Assembly (NCBI GenBank): GCA_938038785.1
Contig: CALHTB010000047.1
Span: 1-64,000, forward strand
DNA length: 64,000 nucleotides
DNA from: an uncultured Acidimicrobiales bacterium
GTDB taxonomy: Bacteria; Actinomycetota; Acidimicrobiia; Acidimicrobiales; SHLQ01
Direction: 5' to 3'
Shown here: piece after piece, positions 9,994 through 57,661 of the stretch
Position numbering within the stretch: the first letter of the stretch is position 1
How the letters are laid out: each line of letters begins with the position of its first letter
Program-made: the position numbers and the translations under genes
The notes under the pieces: generated by a model
The model's input: only the letters and a program-made list of their open reading frames with translations
What the model was told of the DNA's origin: nothing
Databases searched by the model: none

Positions 9994-10854
9994 ATGTCCG
10001 CGCTGTTCCCGGCGTCAGACTTCACCACCAACGGTGTTGCGGTGTTCCCCGGCGCCGTCAGCGAGGATGCACTCGTCGGCCTCCGGAAAGAGATCGCTCG
10101 GCTCGTCGACGACTTTGACCCGAGCGGCGTCACCACGGTGTTCTCGACCGACGAGGGTCAGGGCCATGCTCGCGACGACTACTTCCTCACCTCAGGTGAC
10201 AAGACCCGATTCTTCTTTGAAGATGGAGTCCTGTCCGAGACAGGCGACTTGCTCGTCGACAAACACCAGGCGCTGAACAAGATCGGGCACGCCATGCACG
10301 ATCTCGACCCAGCGTTCTCCGACTTCTGCCGGTCGTACCCGTTCGCAAACGCTGCTGCTGAAGTCGGCATGGCCAACCCGCAATTGCTGCAGTCGATGGT
10401 GATCTTTAAGAACCCCGGGATCGGCGGTGAGGTCACCCCACACACCGACCACACGTTCTTGTGGACCGAGCCGCAGAGCGTGATTGGCTTCTGGCTGGCC
10501 GTCGATGAGGCAACCCAGGAGAACGGCTGTCTTTGGGCCCTTCCCGGAGCCCACACCATTCCGGTGAAGTCCCGCTTCGTCCGCAACGCTGATAACACCG
10601 GCACCGTTATGCAGACCCTTGACGCGACTTCGTACCCAGACGAAGGCTGGGTTCCCCTCGAGGCTGCTCCCGGCACGCTGATTGCTCTTCATGGCACGTT
10701 GCCGCACCGCAGCGAGCCGAATACGTCAGCGAAGTCCCGCCTGGCGTTCACGCTTCATTGCATCGAAGCCGAAGCCGAGTGGTCAGACAAAAACTGGCTC
10801 CAACGTCCCGACATGCCCTTCACGGGCTTTTTGGCTAATCCATTCCCAAAATGA
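9994..10854 (+). CDS. Phytanoyl-CoA dioxygenase family protein (PHYHD1-like)
   Basis: 286 residues. An Fe(II)/2-oxoglutarate oxygenase of the PhyH family. The facial triad is visible as H150-x-D152 (TPHTDHTF) and H238 (TLPHRS), with R249 (SRLAF) as probable 2-oxoglutarate anchor. The DYFLTSGDKTRFFFEDGV and LNKIGHAMHDLDP stretches resemble the human PHYHD1 branch rather than fatty-acyl PAHX, by memory. It starts 3 bp after the importer permease, so it is part of the operon. Its substrate may be what the importer brings in or a derivative; this is inference. Confidence 0.88.
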   Translation: MSALFPASDFTTNGVAVFPGAVSEDALVGLRKEIARLVDDFDPSGVTTVFSTDEGQGHARDDYFLTSGDKTRFFFEDGVLSETGDLLVDKHQALNKIGHAMHDLDPAFSDFCRSYPFANAAAEVGMANPQLLQSMVIFKNPGIGGEVTPHTDHTFLWTEPQSVIGFWLAVDEATQENGCLWALPGAHTIPVKSRFVRNADNTGTVMQTLDATSYPDEGWVPLEAAPGTLIALHGTLPHRSEPNTSAKSRLAFTLHCIEAEAEWSDKNWLQRPDMPFTGFLANPFPK

Positions 10855-10950: not shown

Positions 10951-11895
10951 TCAGCCAAAGACGGCGTTGATCTGTTCTTGGAGTTGAGATTCGCCGAGGC
11001 TGCCGAACTTCTCGATTGAACCGTCAGCGCGTTGGAGGACGAAGGCCGGTTGGGTGCCGATGCCGTACTCGCGCCAGATGTCACCGTTCTCGTCCATGAT
11101 GTTGGGGAAGATCCCAACACCAGTGCCGTCGACAAAGGCGCTCATGGCGTTCCCTCCGTCGAGGCCACCAACTCCAAGGACCGTTAGGCCCGGGTTGGCT
11201 GTTGCTACCCGTGCGACCGCACCGGCTTCGCTTCGACACGTCGGTCACCAGGGCGCCCAGAACCAAAGCACCGTATCGGTGCCCTCGATGGAGTTCAGAT
11301 CGAACTGACCGCCGCCGACCAAGCTCACTTGGCGGCCTGCGGGCGCCGCTGTCGTGGTGGTAGTCGTCGTGGTTGTCGTGGTCGTTGTTGTCGTTGTTGA
11401 AGTAGTGGTTGTTGTCGTTGTTGTCGGCGCTGCAGTGTTGTTGGTTGGCGCGGTTGTCGTCGTAGTTTCCGGCGCCTCGGTCGTTGTTTCAGGAGCTGCA
11501 GTTGTGGTTTCGGCGGTACCGTCCTCGTCTGCGTCACCGTCGGAGACAGCCTCGGTCGTTTCGGGCGGCTCGGGTGCTGCGGTTGTGGTTTCCGCGGACT
11601 CTGGCTCGGGGCCAGCTTCCTCCTCGTCATCAGCCTCGACCGGGCCAGACGTGGTCGTTACAGCTGCGTCGGCATCGACGACCGGCTCATCGTCAACCGT
11701 TGCTTCGGCTTCGTCCGCCGTGCTCGTCGTGGCAGCGGTGACAGGAACCGTGTCGGATGCGGCTGGCTCGGCGGTGGATGTGTCGGCGGTGGATGTGTCA
11801 GTGGCGACTTCGTCCGCGCCGCCGCACGCCGTAGCAAACAGAGCTACAGACAGGAGGAGGGCGTGCCGGCGACGAGGACGCATGGAGGACACCAT
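10951..11895 (-). CDS. Selenocysteine-containing DsbE/MPT53-like thioredoxin-fold lipoprotein (UPTC active site)
   Basis: 314 codons read as one gene with the in-frame TGA at 11247-11245 decoded as selenocysteine (residue 217 if ATG 11895 is used; ATG 11883 is the alternative). The N-terminus is a lipoprotein signal (RRRH, then LLLSVALFATAC, Cys24). A long Ala/Glu/Thr-rich region including a poly-threonine run precedes a thioredoxin-fold domain: VLWFWAPW-Sec-PTCRSEAG, then the cis-Pro loop GTQPAFVL. The order and spacing match actinobacterial DsbE/MPT53 proteins, where Sec is normally Cys. It is an extracytoplasmic thiol oxidoreductase. DUF72 lies 61 bp upstream on the same strand. Ordinary gene callers would split it into a truncated lipoprotein and an orphan fragment. 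Confidence 0.88.
11209..11225 (-). promoter_or_regulatory. Predicted bacterial SECIS element of the DsbE-like gene
   Basis: Read on the minus strand the segment is CCGGTGCGGTCGCACGG. CC and GTGC pair with GCAC and GG, leaving one bulged G on the 5' side and a GGUC tetraloop. The loop begins 27 nt after the UGA, inside the accepted bacterial spacing range. The E. coli fdhF SECIS has the same GGUC loop and a single 5' bulge (there a U). Confidence 0.75.
11345..11430 (-). repeat. Low-complexity tract encoding the poly-threonine linker
   Basis: A run of ACN codons (read as GTN on the plus strand) encodes more than twenty threonines broken only by single Ser residues. It links the acidic lipoprotein tether to the thioredoxin domain. 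Trinucleotide slippage could vary its length in frame. Confidence 0.85.
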
Positions 11896-11956: not shown

Positions 11957-12820
11957 TCAGATGTCGAACAATGCAGGATCTTGCACGGGTGGAGCGTTTG
12001 GTTGCGGAGCCAATTCAGGCACCACCTCGCGCACCTCGTCGTAGAACTGTCGGGCAAGGTCGATCGCAGCTGCATTGTCGGGAGTATGGATGAAGACGAT
12101 CGGGGAACGACCGTCCACAAGCCATCGGCGCACCGTATCGACCCATGGCGACCAGAACTCTGGGTTTGCCTCCGGGCTGGTTTGCCCGATGAAGCGAACG
12201 ATAGGCGAGTCGTTCGTGGCTACGGCTCGCACAGGAACCCGAGGTTTATTCTCGAAGGCCTCGTGCTCGGCTGGGGTAACCCTCGGTCCGGCAAAGACCG
12301 CCCTCGAATCGAGAATGATGCGGTCGGCGCCGGCAGCGTAGAGCGTGTCGTTCAGCCGCCGCTCGATTTCGCCGCCGTCGAAGAAGTCGAGATGGCGAAC
12401 CTCGACGGCGTAGCGCACTTCGGTTGGTAGGCCGCCGAGAAACCTTTCGAGCACGCCGAGGTCAGATGGTCCAAACGATGCCGGGAGCTGGATGGCCACC
12501 GGATGCATCTTCGACAAGCACGGCTCGAGCACGTCAAAGAACTCACGAACGAGCTCATCTGTGTGCCGCAACTTACGGTCGTGGGTGACGGTGCGGGGAA
12601 ACTTGAACACGAACCGAAACTCGTCGGGAGTCAAAGACGCCCAACGGCTCGAGGTCTCGAGGCTCGGCAACGCGTAGAAGGTGGTGTTGCCTTCGACCGC
12701 AGACACCAACGACGAATATGCGGCAAGCTCGCCCCCGCTTGGTGTCGAAGCCGGGATGCTCCGTCCTGGCCACGCCGCGTTCGTCCACATTGCGCAGCCA
12801 ACTCGAAGTGTTCCGATCAC
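11957..12820 (-). CDS. DUF72 (YecE-like) TIM-barrel protein
   Basis: 287 residues from GTG 12820 (VIGTLRVGCAMWTNAAWPG). DUF72 hallmarks are GNTTFYALPS, FKFPRTVTHDRKL, a YAVEVRHLDFF segment and VRFIGQT near the C-terminal third. The family has a TIM-barrel fold and no agreed activity. The long open frame up to 13318 is rejected because it runs antisense into the flavoprotein gene and homology begins here. It is divergent from the reductase gene, and the DsbE-like selenoprotein gene follows on the same strand. Confidence 0.85.
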   Translation of the reverse strand: MIGTLRVGCAMWTNAAWPGRSIPASTPSGGELAAYSSLVSAVEGNTTFYALPSLETSSRWASLTPDEFRFVFKFPRTVTHDRKLRHTDELVREFFDVLEPCLSKMHPVAIQLPASFGPSDLGVLERFLGGLPTEVRYAVEVRHLDFFDGGEIERRLNDTLYAAGADRIILDSRAVFAGPRVTPAEHEAFENKPRVPVRAVATNDSPIVRFIGQTSPEANPEFWSPWVDTVRRWLVDGRSPIVFIHTPDNAAAIDLARQFYDEVREVVPELAPQPNAPPVQDPALFDI

Positions 12821-12883
12821 GTGCCCAACGTAACTCCGGCACAGGCAGCGGTTCCATGCGAGGTCGATGGCAAACTTAATGAC

Positions 12884-14107
12884 ATGACCCCAATGTCGGC
12901 TGACGTCCTTGTCATCGGTGCCGGACCTGCAGGAGCTGCTGCAGCGATCCAGGCGGCGCGGGGCGGTGCTTCTGTCGTTGTATTCGACAAAGCGCCGTAC
13001 GGCCGTGACAAGGTGTGCGGCGATGGGTTGACGCCGAGAGCCATCGGCGCACTCAACGACCTGCAGATCCCGATCGATGGCGCGCACCACATCGTTGGGC
13101 TTCGAATGATCGCCAACTCCACCGTGCGCGAGCTCGACTGGCCCGGTGGTGGTCGCTTTCCAAACCATGGAGCTGTTTGGCCCCGACGCCGCCTCGACGC
13201 TGCGCTCATCGATGCAGCAACTGAAGCTGGCGCAGAGGTCATTTGGGAAACCGAAGCCCTCCCGATCCTCGACGGCGACCGCGTCATCGGCGTCGTTGCT
13301 GACGGCAAGACCTGGCACGCGCCAATGACCGTTATCGCCACCGGCGCACCTGGCAAGGTGGCCAAGATGCTGGGTACCGACCGGGTTGAGGACGAGCCGT
13401 TCGGTCTCGCCATCCGGGCCTACGTACCGTCAGATCGTCACGACAGCCAGCACCTCGAAGCGTGTCTTACCCTCAAAGACGAACATGGCACAGCTGTTCC
13501 CGGCTACGGCTGGATGTTCCCCGCTGGTGATGGAACCGTGAACATTGGCGCTGGAGCGCTAAGCACCATGCGCGGGTTCAAGAAGCTCAACCTGAACACA
13601 CTTCTCAGCGACTATCGCAAGCTCGTTCAAGAAGACTGGGGCTTGGGCGAGTTCGTCGAGCGGCCACGGGCCTGGCGCCTACCAATGAGCGCGCAACGCC
13701 GCCATGGCGATGGCTGGGTGGCAATCGGCGATGCAGCGGGTCTCATCAACCCAATGAACGGCGAGGGAATCGACTACGGCCTCGAAAGCGGCATGCTCGC
13801 ATCCGACCTCTTCCTTGAGAACCCGGCCACCGCTGCGGTTCGCTACGACGTCGAGGTAGGCGAACGGTTCGACGCTTTTCTGAGCACCGGCCGGCGGTTT
13901 AGCTTCCTTATCGGCCACCCGTGGATTCTGAAGTCGGGTCTTCGCCTCGCTGTGGGCACCGACGCAATCGCGAAGATCACCCTGCAGGTCATGGGTAACC
14001 TGGTCGATGGCCAAACGCCAGGAGCAGCTGGCCGTATCTTCCGCCTGACCGATAAGGCGCTGCAGACTGCCGATCCGGTCCTGCGCAAAACCCGCGCAGC
14101 GGCGTAG
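12884..14107 (+). CDS. Geranylgeranyl reductase family flavoprotein (MenJ-like)
   Basis: 407 residues from ATG 12884 (MTPMSADV; ATG 12893 is also possible). The N-terminal Rossmann motif VIGAGPAGAAAA binds FAD, followed by the family motif DKVCGDGLTPRAI and a second FAD motif VAIGDAAGLINPMNGEGIDYG. In Actinobacteria this family includes MenJ, which saturates one isoprene unit of the menaquinone tail. A role in menaquinone or isoprenoid reduction is likely, but close relatives act on other polyprenyl lipids. The upstream frame from 12503 overlaps the divergent DUF72 gene and is not used. Confidence 0.85.
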   Translation: MTPMSADVLVIGAGPAGAAAAIQAARGGASVVVFDKAPYGRDKVCGDGLTPRAIGALNDLQIPIDGAHHIVGLRMIANSTVRELDWPGGGRFPNHGAVWPRRRLDAALIDAATEAGAEVIWETEALPILDGDRVIGVVADGKTWHAPMTVIATGAPGKVAKMLGTDRVEDEPFGLAIRAYVPSDRHDSQHLEACLTLKDEHGTAVPGYGWMFPAGDGTVNIGAGALSTMRGFKKLNLNTLLSDYRKLVQEDWGLGEFVERPRAWRLPMSAQRRHGDGWVAIGDAAGLINPMNGEGIDYGLESGMLASDLFLENPATAAVRYDVEVGERFDAFLSTGRRFSFLIGHPWILKSGLRLAVGTDAIAKITLQVMGNLVDGQTPGAAGRIFRLTDKALQTADPVLRKTRAAA

Positions 14108-56998: not shown

Positions 56999-57661
56999 AT
57001 GACCACGACGAATATCACGAGCGACCCGGTTCACCTCACGGTCTACTCCGACTTCCTTTGACCTTGGTGTTACGTCGCGACCGTGCGTCTCGACCAACTC
57101 GTTGAAGAAGTGGGCGATCAGATCGAGGTCGAATGGAAGACCTTTCTGCTTCGCCCAGAAGCACCCAAGACCACAAACCGCGAGAAGTTTGTCGAGTACA
57201 CGAAGAGCTGGTTGAACCCGGGCGAACAAGAGCCCGAAACCACCTTTAACGTTTGGGCCAGTGATGAGGATCAGCCGTCTTCGAGTGTGCCAGCCCAGGT
57301 CGCCCACAAGGCAGTGGCAGCAATGGCGCCCGAGCGCGCCGACGATTACCACCATCGATTGCTCACCGCGTACTTCACCGAGAATCGCAACATAAGCGAT
57401 GCCGACACCCTCCTCGACCTCGCAGCTGATATTGGCATCGACCGAGACGCCCTCGAGGCTGTGGCTCGAGAGAACCAGCAGAGCTTCACCAAGATGGTCA
57501 TTGACGAGCACAACGCAGCGATCCAAAGCAACGTCACTGCAGTGCCCACTGTCGTGTTCGAGAACTCGTTCGCCGTGCCCGGCGCTCAGCCAGTTGAGAC
57601 CTATCAACGGCTCGTCGAACGAATCGCAGAGAAGAAGGCCGAGCTCGCCTCCGAGCTGTAA
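56999..57661 (+). CDS. Selenocysteine-containing DsbA/FrnE-like oxidoreductase (UPWC active site)
   Basis: 220 residues if the in-frame TGA at 57059-57061 is read as selenocysteine (residue 21). The sequence is LTVYSDFL-Sec-PWCYVATVRLDQL, then a helical insert and the cis-Pro segment VTAVPTVVFENSFAVPGAQP near the C-terminus. FrnE-like DsbA proteins have SDxxCPWCYxG, so Sec sits exactly at the first catalytic Cys. There is no signal peptide, so it is cytoplasmic. Homology starts at ATG 56999, well before the TGA; the GTG at 57083 would lack the active site. It lies 19 bp after the YceH fusion. Confidence 0.87.
57074..57094 (+). promoter_or_regulatory. Candidate SECIS element of the DsbA/FrnE-like gene
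   Basis: Downstream of the UGA, CGC (57076) and GCG (57085) enclose the loop GACCGU, starting 18 nt after the UGA. An alternative fold pairs GTCG (57074) with CGAC (57091). Spacing and loop size fit bacterial SECIS rules, but the stem is short and this assignment is weaker than for the DsbE-like gene. Confidence 0.4.

Follow-up and report, generated by a model that had tools for sequence, protein, structure and literature searches.

Positions 10951 to 11895 of the minus strand of the window, by which we mean the whole 64,000-nucleotide stretch analyzed here, from a bacterium related to uncultured Acidimicrobiales, hold a gene of 314 codons plus stop, in the translation of which a TGA at 11247-11245 is read as selenocysteine (Sec). 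The first ATG lies at 11895, and an alternative ATG at 11883 falls, in the alignment, in the region where the orthologues start. The predicted product opens with a signal peptide carrying a lipobox around Cys24 (LFATAC-GG; 11824-11895, minus strand), assigned by pattern match, and by the same kind of match the window gene and eight of eight orthologues all have an AC-GG or AC-GS site; the window gene has Ala at lipobox position -3, where another residue is commoner. A Thr/Ala/Glu-rich tether of about 160 residues, 35% of them Thr, follows at 11344-11823, and a catalytic domain of the thioredoxin fold (TlpA/ResA/MPT53-like, about 130 residues) occupies 10954-11343. Within it, the UGA at residue 217 (11245-11247) starts the active site WAPW-U-PTC directly after WFWAPW, Cys220 (TGT, 11236-11238) is the second active-site residue, and the gene ends at a further TGA (10951-10953).

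A sequence-only reading of this stretch had described a lipoprotein with a poly-threonine tether whose frame is broken by TGA immediately after WFWAPW and which spans 314 residues once read through. Both the frame with its motif and, by comparison (lipobox pattern in nine of nine, window gene and orthologues), the lipoprotein with its Thr-rich tether are borne out. That reading also gave 98 open codons after the TGA; the frame does continue to a normal stop at 10953-10951, through PTCRSEAG and GTQPAFVL, but 98 includes the stop codon and the actual number is 97. In the eight orthologues the tether measures 50 to 113 residues, so that the poly-Thr segment is, on sequence comparison, a linker of variable length and loosely conserved composition, and no connection between tether and Sec codon is visible in the window gene and these orthologues.

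Directly upstream, on the same strand, an open reading frame (11957-13318) holds a DUF72 gene with its true start inside the frame, an arrangement kept in six of the eight orthologous loci that makes the DUF72 gene a possible operon partner. Downstream lies a convergent PhyH-family gene (9994-10854, plus strand), which was found at seven of the eight loci and serves as a synteny marker. The conserved neighbours (DUF72, PhyH and an ABC permease) give no functional hint.

Since the window (G+C 0.607) contains 175 frames in which a TGA is preceded by 60 or more open codons and followed by 40 or more, the length of the open frame alone is weak evidence. What is beyond chance, to judge from the sequences, is that a single thioredoxin fold is encoded across the TGA and that homologues keep TGA at exactly this codon. 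A domain search of 98 genomes (the window's own and relatives) found the domain in 94, and from about 150 matches listed we took 110 loci, 30 given as loci and 80 fetched; matches outside these 110, mostly weaker, were judged only by the presence of internal stops, which were TGA or none. At the first and second active-site positions, 80 of the 110 loci have U,C, 13 have U,U and the other 17 have C,C. The first of these positions is thus a TGA codon in 93 loci and Cys in all the rest, which bears out the Sec position proposed by the sequence-only reading and answers its question of how often that residue is Cys (17 of 110 here, 35 of 80 in the second set described below). Across the aligned domain of these loci there is no TAA or TAG, and TGA is confined to the two active-site cysteine positions, with the exception of one locus (L093) that has a single TGA near the end of the alignment, apparently its own stop.

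At genus level, where the counts refer to drafts of 67-96% completeness, nine of eleven genomes, the window's included, match at E 2.2e-43 or better, all of them U,C, and the remaining two hold only more distant members. The eight orthologues from other genomes are 56-74% identical to the window protein, and the nine together form one starred nine-row clade in a tree of 145 rows and 130 columns with many open forks, of which we used this clade and the starred UxxU clade discussed below.

A second set, the best 80 of 524 relatives listed from a named collection, contains U,C in 45 loci and C,C in 35; it was drawn through two patterns (LWFWAPW and one other), so that its share of Sec is no census, and it overlaps the first, 18 of its 80 loci having the same stretch as a first-set locus. 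All 45 of its Sec loci come from metagenome-assembled genomes, 42 titled Acidimicrobiales, Acidimicrobiia or Acidimicrobiaceae and three Actinomycetes or Actinomycetota, and its Cys loci include Streptomyces, Mycobacterium, Pseudonocardiales, Geodermatophilaceae and one Microthrixaceae. A plasmid search returned 17 records, all below 60% identity.

Downstream of the UGA, a putative bacterial SECIS (bSECIS) hairpin, GCC-G-GUGC-GGUC-GCAC-G-GGU, occupies 11207-11226 (minus strand), with its GGUC loop (11218-11215) 26 nt after the UGA and seven base pairs around it, arranged as four pairs, a one-by-one mismatch and three pairs. The accessible text of PMC13188914 lists for such elements a loop of 3-9 nt with a G in its first two positions, an upper stem of 4-16 bp, a spacing of 16-37 nt and a minimum free energy of -7.5 or lower, and the window hairpin falls within every one of these published limits (GGUC, 26 nt, -10.3 and -11.3 kcal/mol). 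GGUC stands exactly 26 nt after the UGA in 75 of 93 Sec loci of the first set and in 45/45 of the second. The loop letters alone are not specific, because GGTC is also present at this place in some Cys loci (2/17 and 5/35).

Among 74 distinct sequences, 89.4% of cells are paired as against 77.7 in shuffles, 61 cells are changed on both sides as against 15.0, and covariation reaches 0.423 as against 0.206, none of 500 shuffles being as high in any of the three; sliding the partner strand lowers pairing to 26-59%, and the covariation picture is alike when the whole genus is left out. One measure is weak: a double change is seen in 5 pairs, a count reached by 196 of 500 shuffles with all sequences and by 34 of 500 without the genus. 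Model R2, built without the genus, gives the window element 38.8 bits, and its next match in the 64 kb has 11.3. The full model, which contains these sequences, recovers three sites in the window's own genome at E of 1 or less (150 of 2701 first-look candidates scored), namely that of the window gene and those of two UxxU paralogues. Taken as a whole, the 51 nt of RNA around the UGA are no more stable than shuffled sequences (z +0.92), a value that is uninformative by itself and made the comparative evidence necessary; their minimum-energy fold does contain the hairpin, and the element taken alone has z -2.85 (24 nt) or -1.93 (20 nt). Comparison of the window gene with the eight orthologues, ungapped, gives synonymous differences in only four of 104 codon comparisons over codons +4 to +16, against 94 of 240 upstream and 178 of 632 further downstream (Fisher 2.8e-13 and 2.5e-9, respectively, for comparisons that are not independent); such suppression over the hairpin is as expected for an RNA element that would overlie the coding sequence.

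The remaining 18 Sec loci, together with three whose GGTC we judged incidental, present a second putative SECIS type with an AGUU-like loop, in which bases 31-36 pair with 42-47 (the U of UGA being 0) to give six pairs around a five-base loop. Its AGTT core is present in 18 of these 21 loci (L046, L051, L076, L084, L085, L096, L098, L099, L101, L103, L104, L109, L111, L114-L117, L119, L120, L123 and L124), 121 of 126 cells are paired as against 29-64 when the strand is slid, and it occurs mostly in a WAPHUPTC-like subgroup. Separately, one Cys-type homologue (L034), from a genome (G061) without a selA or tRNA-Sec match, keeps AGGTCGCAGAGG, which closely resembles the 3' half of the SECIS; this locus may reflect a Sec-to-Cys change with a leftover element.

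That the locus could be a pseudogene, a Cys-type gene in which the TGA arose by decay or through faulty sequencing, draws on the incompleteness of the draft and on the 175 chance-like interrupted frames, but the same codon is TGA in eight of eight genus orthologues at 56-74% identity, 96-97 codons lead from it to the stop in all nine, differences from the window gene after the SECIS favour third positions (186, 195 and 328 at positions 1, 2 and 3, ungapped) and the hairpin covaries, all of which makes decay improbable, as the sequence-only reading had held, and in our estimation next to negligible.

In the window's own genome, a tRNA-Sec scores above the Rfam cut-off and is confirmed by ARAGORN with anticodon TCA; selB scores above its cut-off, on a contig of 3.2 kb with the match starting 87 nt from its end; and selD lies at L017 1402-3891 (minus strand), fused in frame behind a Pyr_redox_2 (NADH-dehydrogenase-like) domain to give 829 aa in all, Ndh-SelD fusions being described in the accessible part of PMC2398784. 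The sequence-only reading had proposed a check for all four of selA, selB, selC and selD. The genome has the last three; no selA turned up in its draft assembly, which is 73.5% complete in 134 contigs, and in ten of ten other genus genomes selA sits just upstream of selB. Among the 98 genomes, 65 have tRNA-Sec, 65 have a selA match (62 above cut-off), 70 have either and 60 have both. For the 67 genomes with listed domain matches, to which the co-occurrence count applies (27 other matching genomes, unlisted, lie outside it), each of the 43 for which a TGA member is listed has at least one of tRNA-Sec and selA, 39 of them both, and the 24 listed without a TGA member divide evenly into 12 with either marker and 12 with neither. 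TGA members thus occur in 43 of the 55 listed genomes that have a marker and in none of the 12 that have neither (Fisher 4.5e-7). Read-through of UGA at many loci might also suggest genome-wide reassignment or suppression to some other amino acid, yet TGA also terminates the window gene and several homologues, in-domain TGA is restricted to the two active-site cysteine positions, and tRNA-Sec with a TCA anticodon and SelB are present, so that we give this reading almost no weight.

The DsbE/MPT53-type fold that had been proposed for the protein is upheld by both sequence and structure. Pfam assigns to the read-through protein AhpC-TSA (3.5e-10, residues 194-293) and Redoxin (1.7e-7), the PF00578 domain standing above its gathering score (40.3 bits versus 26) with a UxxC (U-P-T-C) active site, and the nearest solved relatives by sequence are DsbF (E 1.4e-25) and MPT53 (E 3.2e-25) of M. 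tuberculosis. An AlphaFold model built with 35 aligned sequences has a mean pLDDT of 95.5, and its best structural matches are DsbF (3ios, TM 0.91) and MPT53 (1lu4, TM 0.88), followed by ResA. The two mycobacterial proteins have the WFWxPWCPxC motif, with Cys for Sec, and the QPA cis-Pro loop in common with the window protein, as well as 34% (DsbF) and 36% (MPT53/DsbE) identity and, as far as the accessible text of PMC3792642 goes, a signal peptide; they differ in having Cys instead of Sec, and the aligned solved chains are without the long Thr-rich tether. ResA, StoA and TlpA, which are CcdA-dependent extracytoplasmic reductants, likewise have the fold (ResA TM 0.82-0.86), but ResA and StoA have 20-25% identity in the listed chains, a Cys active site and NCBIfam scores far below the cut-offs. 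No NCBIfam family is above its cut-off for the window protein (StoA 45 of 210 bits, ResA 37.6 of 170, DsbE 33.9 of 123.15). On these sequence relationships, it is best described as a putative Sec homologue of the MPT53/DsbF-type TlpA-like oxidoreductases and not as a CxxC member.

Low selenium would be expected to favour termination and so to leave a tethered stub, but the idea that this stub is what functions, with the frame beyond the UGA there by accident, is very hard to sustain when most of the fold, including Cys220, the cis-Pro loop and the first helix of the active site, comes after the UGA and is conserved.

On the comparative evidence, the full-length protein is very probably an exported lipoprotein oxidoreductase with a Sec-decoded active site. 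Anchored through Cys24, the exported lipoprotein would bear its MPT53/DsbF-like thioredoxin domain on a long Thr-rich tether, UGA 217 being decoded by SelB and tRNA-Sec under the guidance of the GGUC-loop hairpin 26 nt downstream. The selenol, which would be a stronger nucleophile than a thiol and already ionised at neutral pH, could then attack a disulfide or oxidised thiol of an extracytoplasmic substrate; Cys220 would resolve the mixed bond to give an Se-S bond, and this would be re-reduced by a membrane electron carrier, for which CcdA is a candidate.

A surface peroxidase of the peroxiredoxin type, its Sec reducing peroxides, is suggested by AhpC-TSA being the top Pfam domain and by the filing of similar proteins as Prx-like in the accessible text of PMC13188914. 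We regard it as improbable, however: the active site is the thioredoxin-like WAPWUxxC and not the TxxU given there for Sec-peroxiredoxins, its WAPWUPTC is likewise not the TxxC/TxxU peroxidatic motif of peroxiredoxins (AhpC/Bcp), and the best structural matches are DsbF, MPT53 and ResA, the first chains named Bcp or peroxiredoxin standing 43rd, 47th and 49th among the 50 listed.

The direction of the redox reaction is less easily assigned. An oxidase role is ascribed to DsbF and MPT53, the nearest solved relatives. On the other hand, the accessible text of PMC3792642 lists the function of both as unknown. That the Sec protein might, like them, act as an extracytoplasmic oxidase and make disulfides in exported proteins is argued for by their being the closest in sequence and fold, with the common WFWxPWCPxC motif (Sec for Cys here) and QPA loop. 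The genus genomes point for the most part elsewhere, since DsbD_TM/CcdA is found in 9/11 and DsbB in only 2/11, and VKOR was found in none of the 11. The two genomes with a DsbB match (G001 and G002) are also the only ones without a DsbD_TM match, which speaks for an oxidase, and both keep the Sec orthologue, so that CcdA cannot be the sole partner unless the drafts miss it; DsbB and DsbD_TM are perhaps alternative membrane partners. With genomic hints thus mixed, we consider an oxidase rather unlikely and an extracytoplasmic reductase or repair enzyme likelier, giving the latter about an even chance.

A second candidate lies elsewhere in the window. A DsbA-family protein (PF01323, 3.5e-29) is encoded at 56999-57661 on the plus strand, with a TGA at 57059-57061 in the context VYSDFL-U-PWCYVA, and is from its sequence a probable second selenoprotein, of the DsbA-like DxxUP type catalogued in the accessible text of PMC13188914. 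The SECIS models gave no match at this TGA, the local fold there is not unusual (z +1.21), and BLASTP detects no relationship between this protein and that of 10951-11895.

Sec in a protein of this kind is less novel than the sequence-only reading had supposed. Prx-like thiol:disulfide oxidoreductases (PF00578), both UxxC and UxxU, and a UxxC selenoprotein of the Redoxin family (PF08534) are already catalogued as predicted selenoproteins in the accessible parts of PMC13188914, PMC9312934 and PMC2398784. Like the window protein, these have the Pfam domain, UxxC (UxxU in some) and a bSECIS just after the UGA; unlike it, they are broad bins whose functions are, in those sources, mostly not known. 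An NCBIfam model (NF041057, Rcas_1661 family) also exists for what is by name a thioredoxin-like (seleno)lipoprotein; it is absent from the 18 NCBIfam matches of the window protein and matched the DsbA-like candidate below cut-off. The window protein would accordingly belong, by its sequence features, with the catalogued UxxC Prx-like selenoproteins, and its novelty is modest. The string 'acidimicrob' has no occurrence in PMC13188914 or PMC5029168, and a search for literature on selenoproteins of the Acidimicrobiia or of this clade, judged mostly from listings and with subscription papers and preprints outside its scope, found no paper.

Less expected is the expansion of paralogues in the Acidimicrobiia, with a single UxxU clade that is perhaps served by one SECIS. 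Five of six matches in the window's own genome comprise the window gene (U,C), two U,U members (C85 and C122), a distant U,C member (C70) and a C,C member (C104), and for another genome of the genus (G007) seven TGA members are listed, of which we examined five at residue level. The 13 U,U sequences (WAPW-U-x-x-U; L048, L049, L060, L063, L066-L068, L070, L072-L074, L077 and L089) make up a single starred clade and each have the GGUC hairpin, and one further two-TGA match beyond the 110 loci occurs in G005. Their UGA codons are nine bases apart and lie 26 and 17 nt from the GGUC loop; the shorter spacing is within the 16-37 range published in the accessible text of PMC13188914, and one hairpin could, by this arrangement, serve both codons. 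Selenoprotein L has a UxxU motif and forms a diselenide. It resembles the 13 paralogues in having two Sec in one thioredoxin-fold motif but belongs to another Prx-like family, likened here by description only and named as a Prx-like protein in the accessible part of PMC2398784.

Given several Sec paralogues per genome, up to seven listed TGA members, and the lipoprotein nature of the genus members examined, it may be postulated that the Acidimicrobiia have turned an MPT53-like oxidoreductase into a Sec-based surface redox network, with a UxxU clade of single origin and one SECIS and possibly extracytoplasmic diselenide cycling, a proposal for and against which we see the balance as equal. Annotation pipelines would probably cut such genes short at UGA or divide them there, and the family may thus be missed in databases of Acidimicrobiia. 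The present results add several predicted selenoproteins per genome in a class that PMC13188914 and PMC5029168 do not mention, and the lineage-specific SECIS consensus (GGUC and the second, AGUU-type loop) can be used to find more. Finally, the U..C, U..U and C..C paralogues constitute a natural set in which to ask what selenium buys an exported thiol enzyme.
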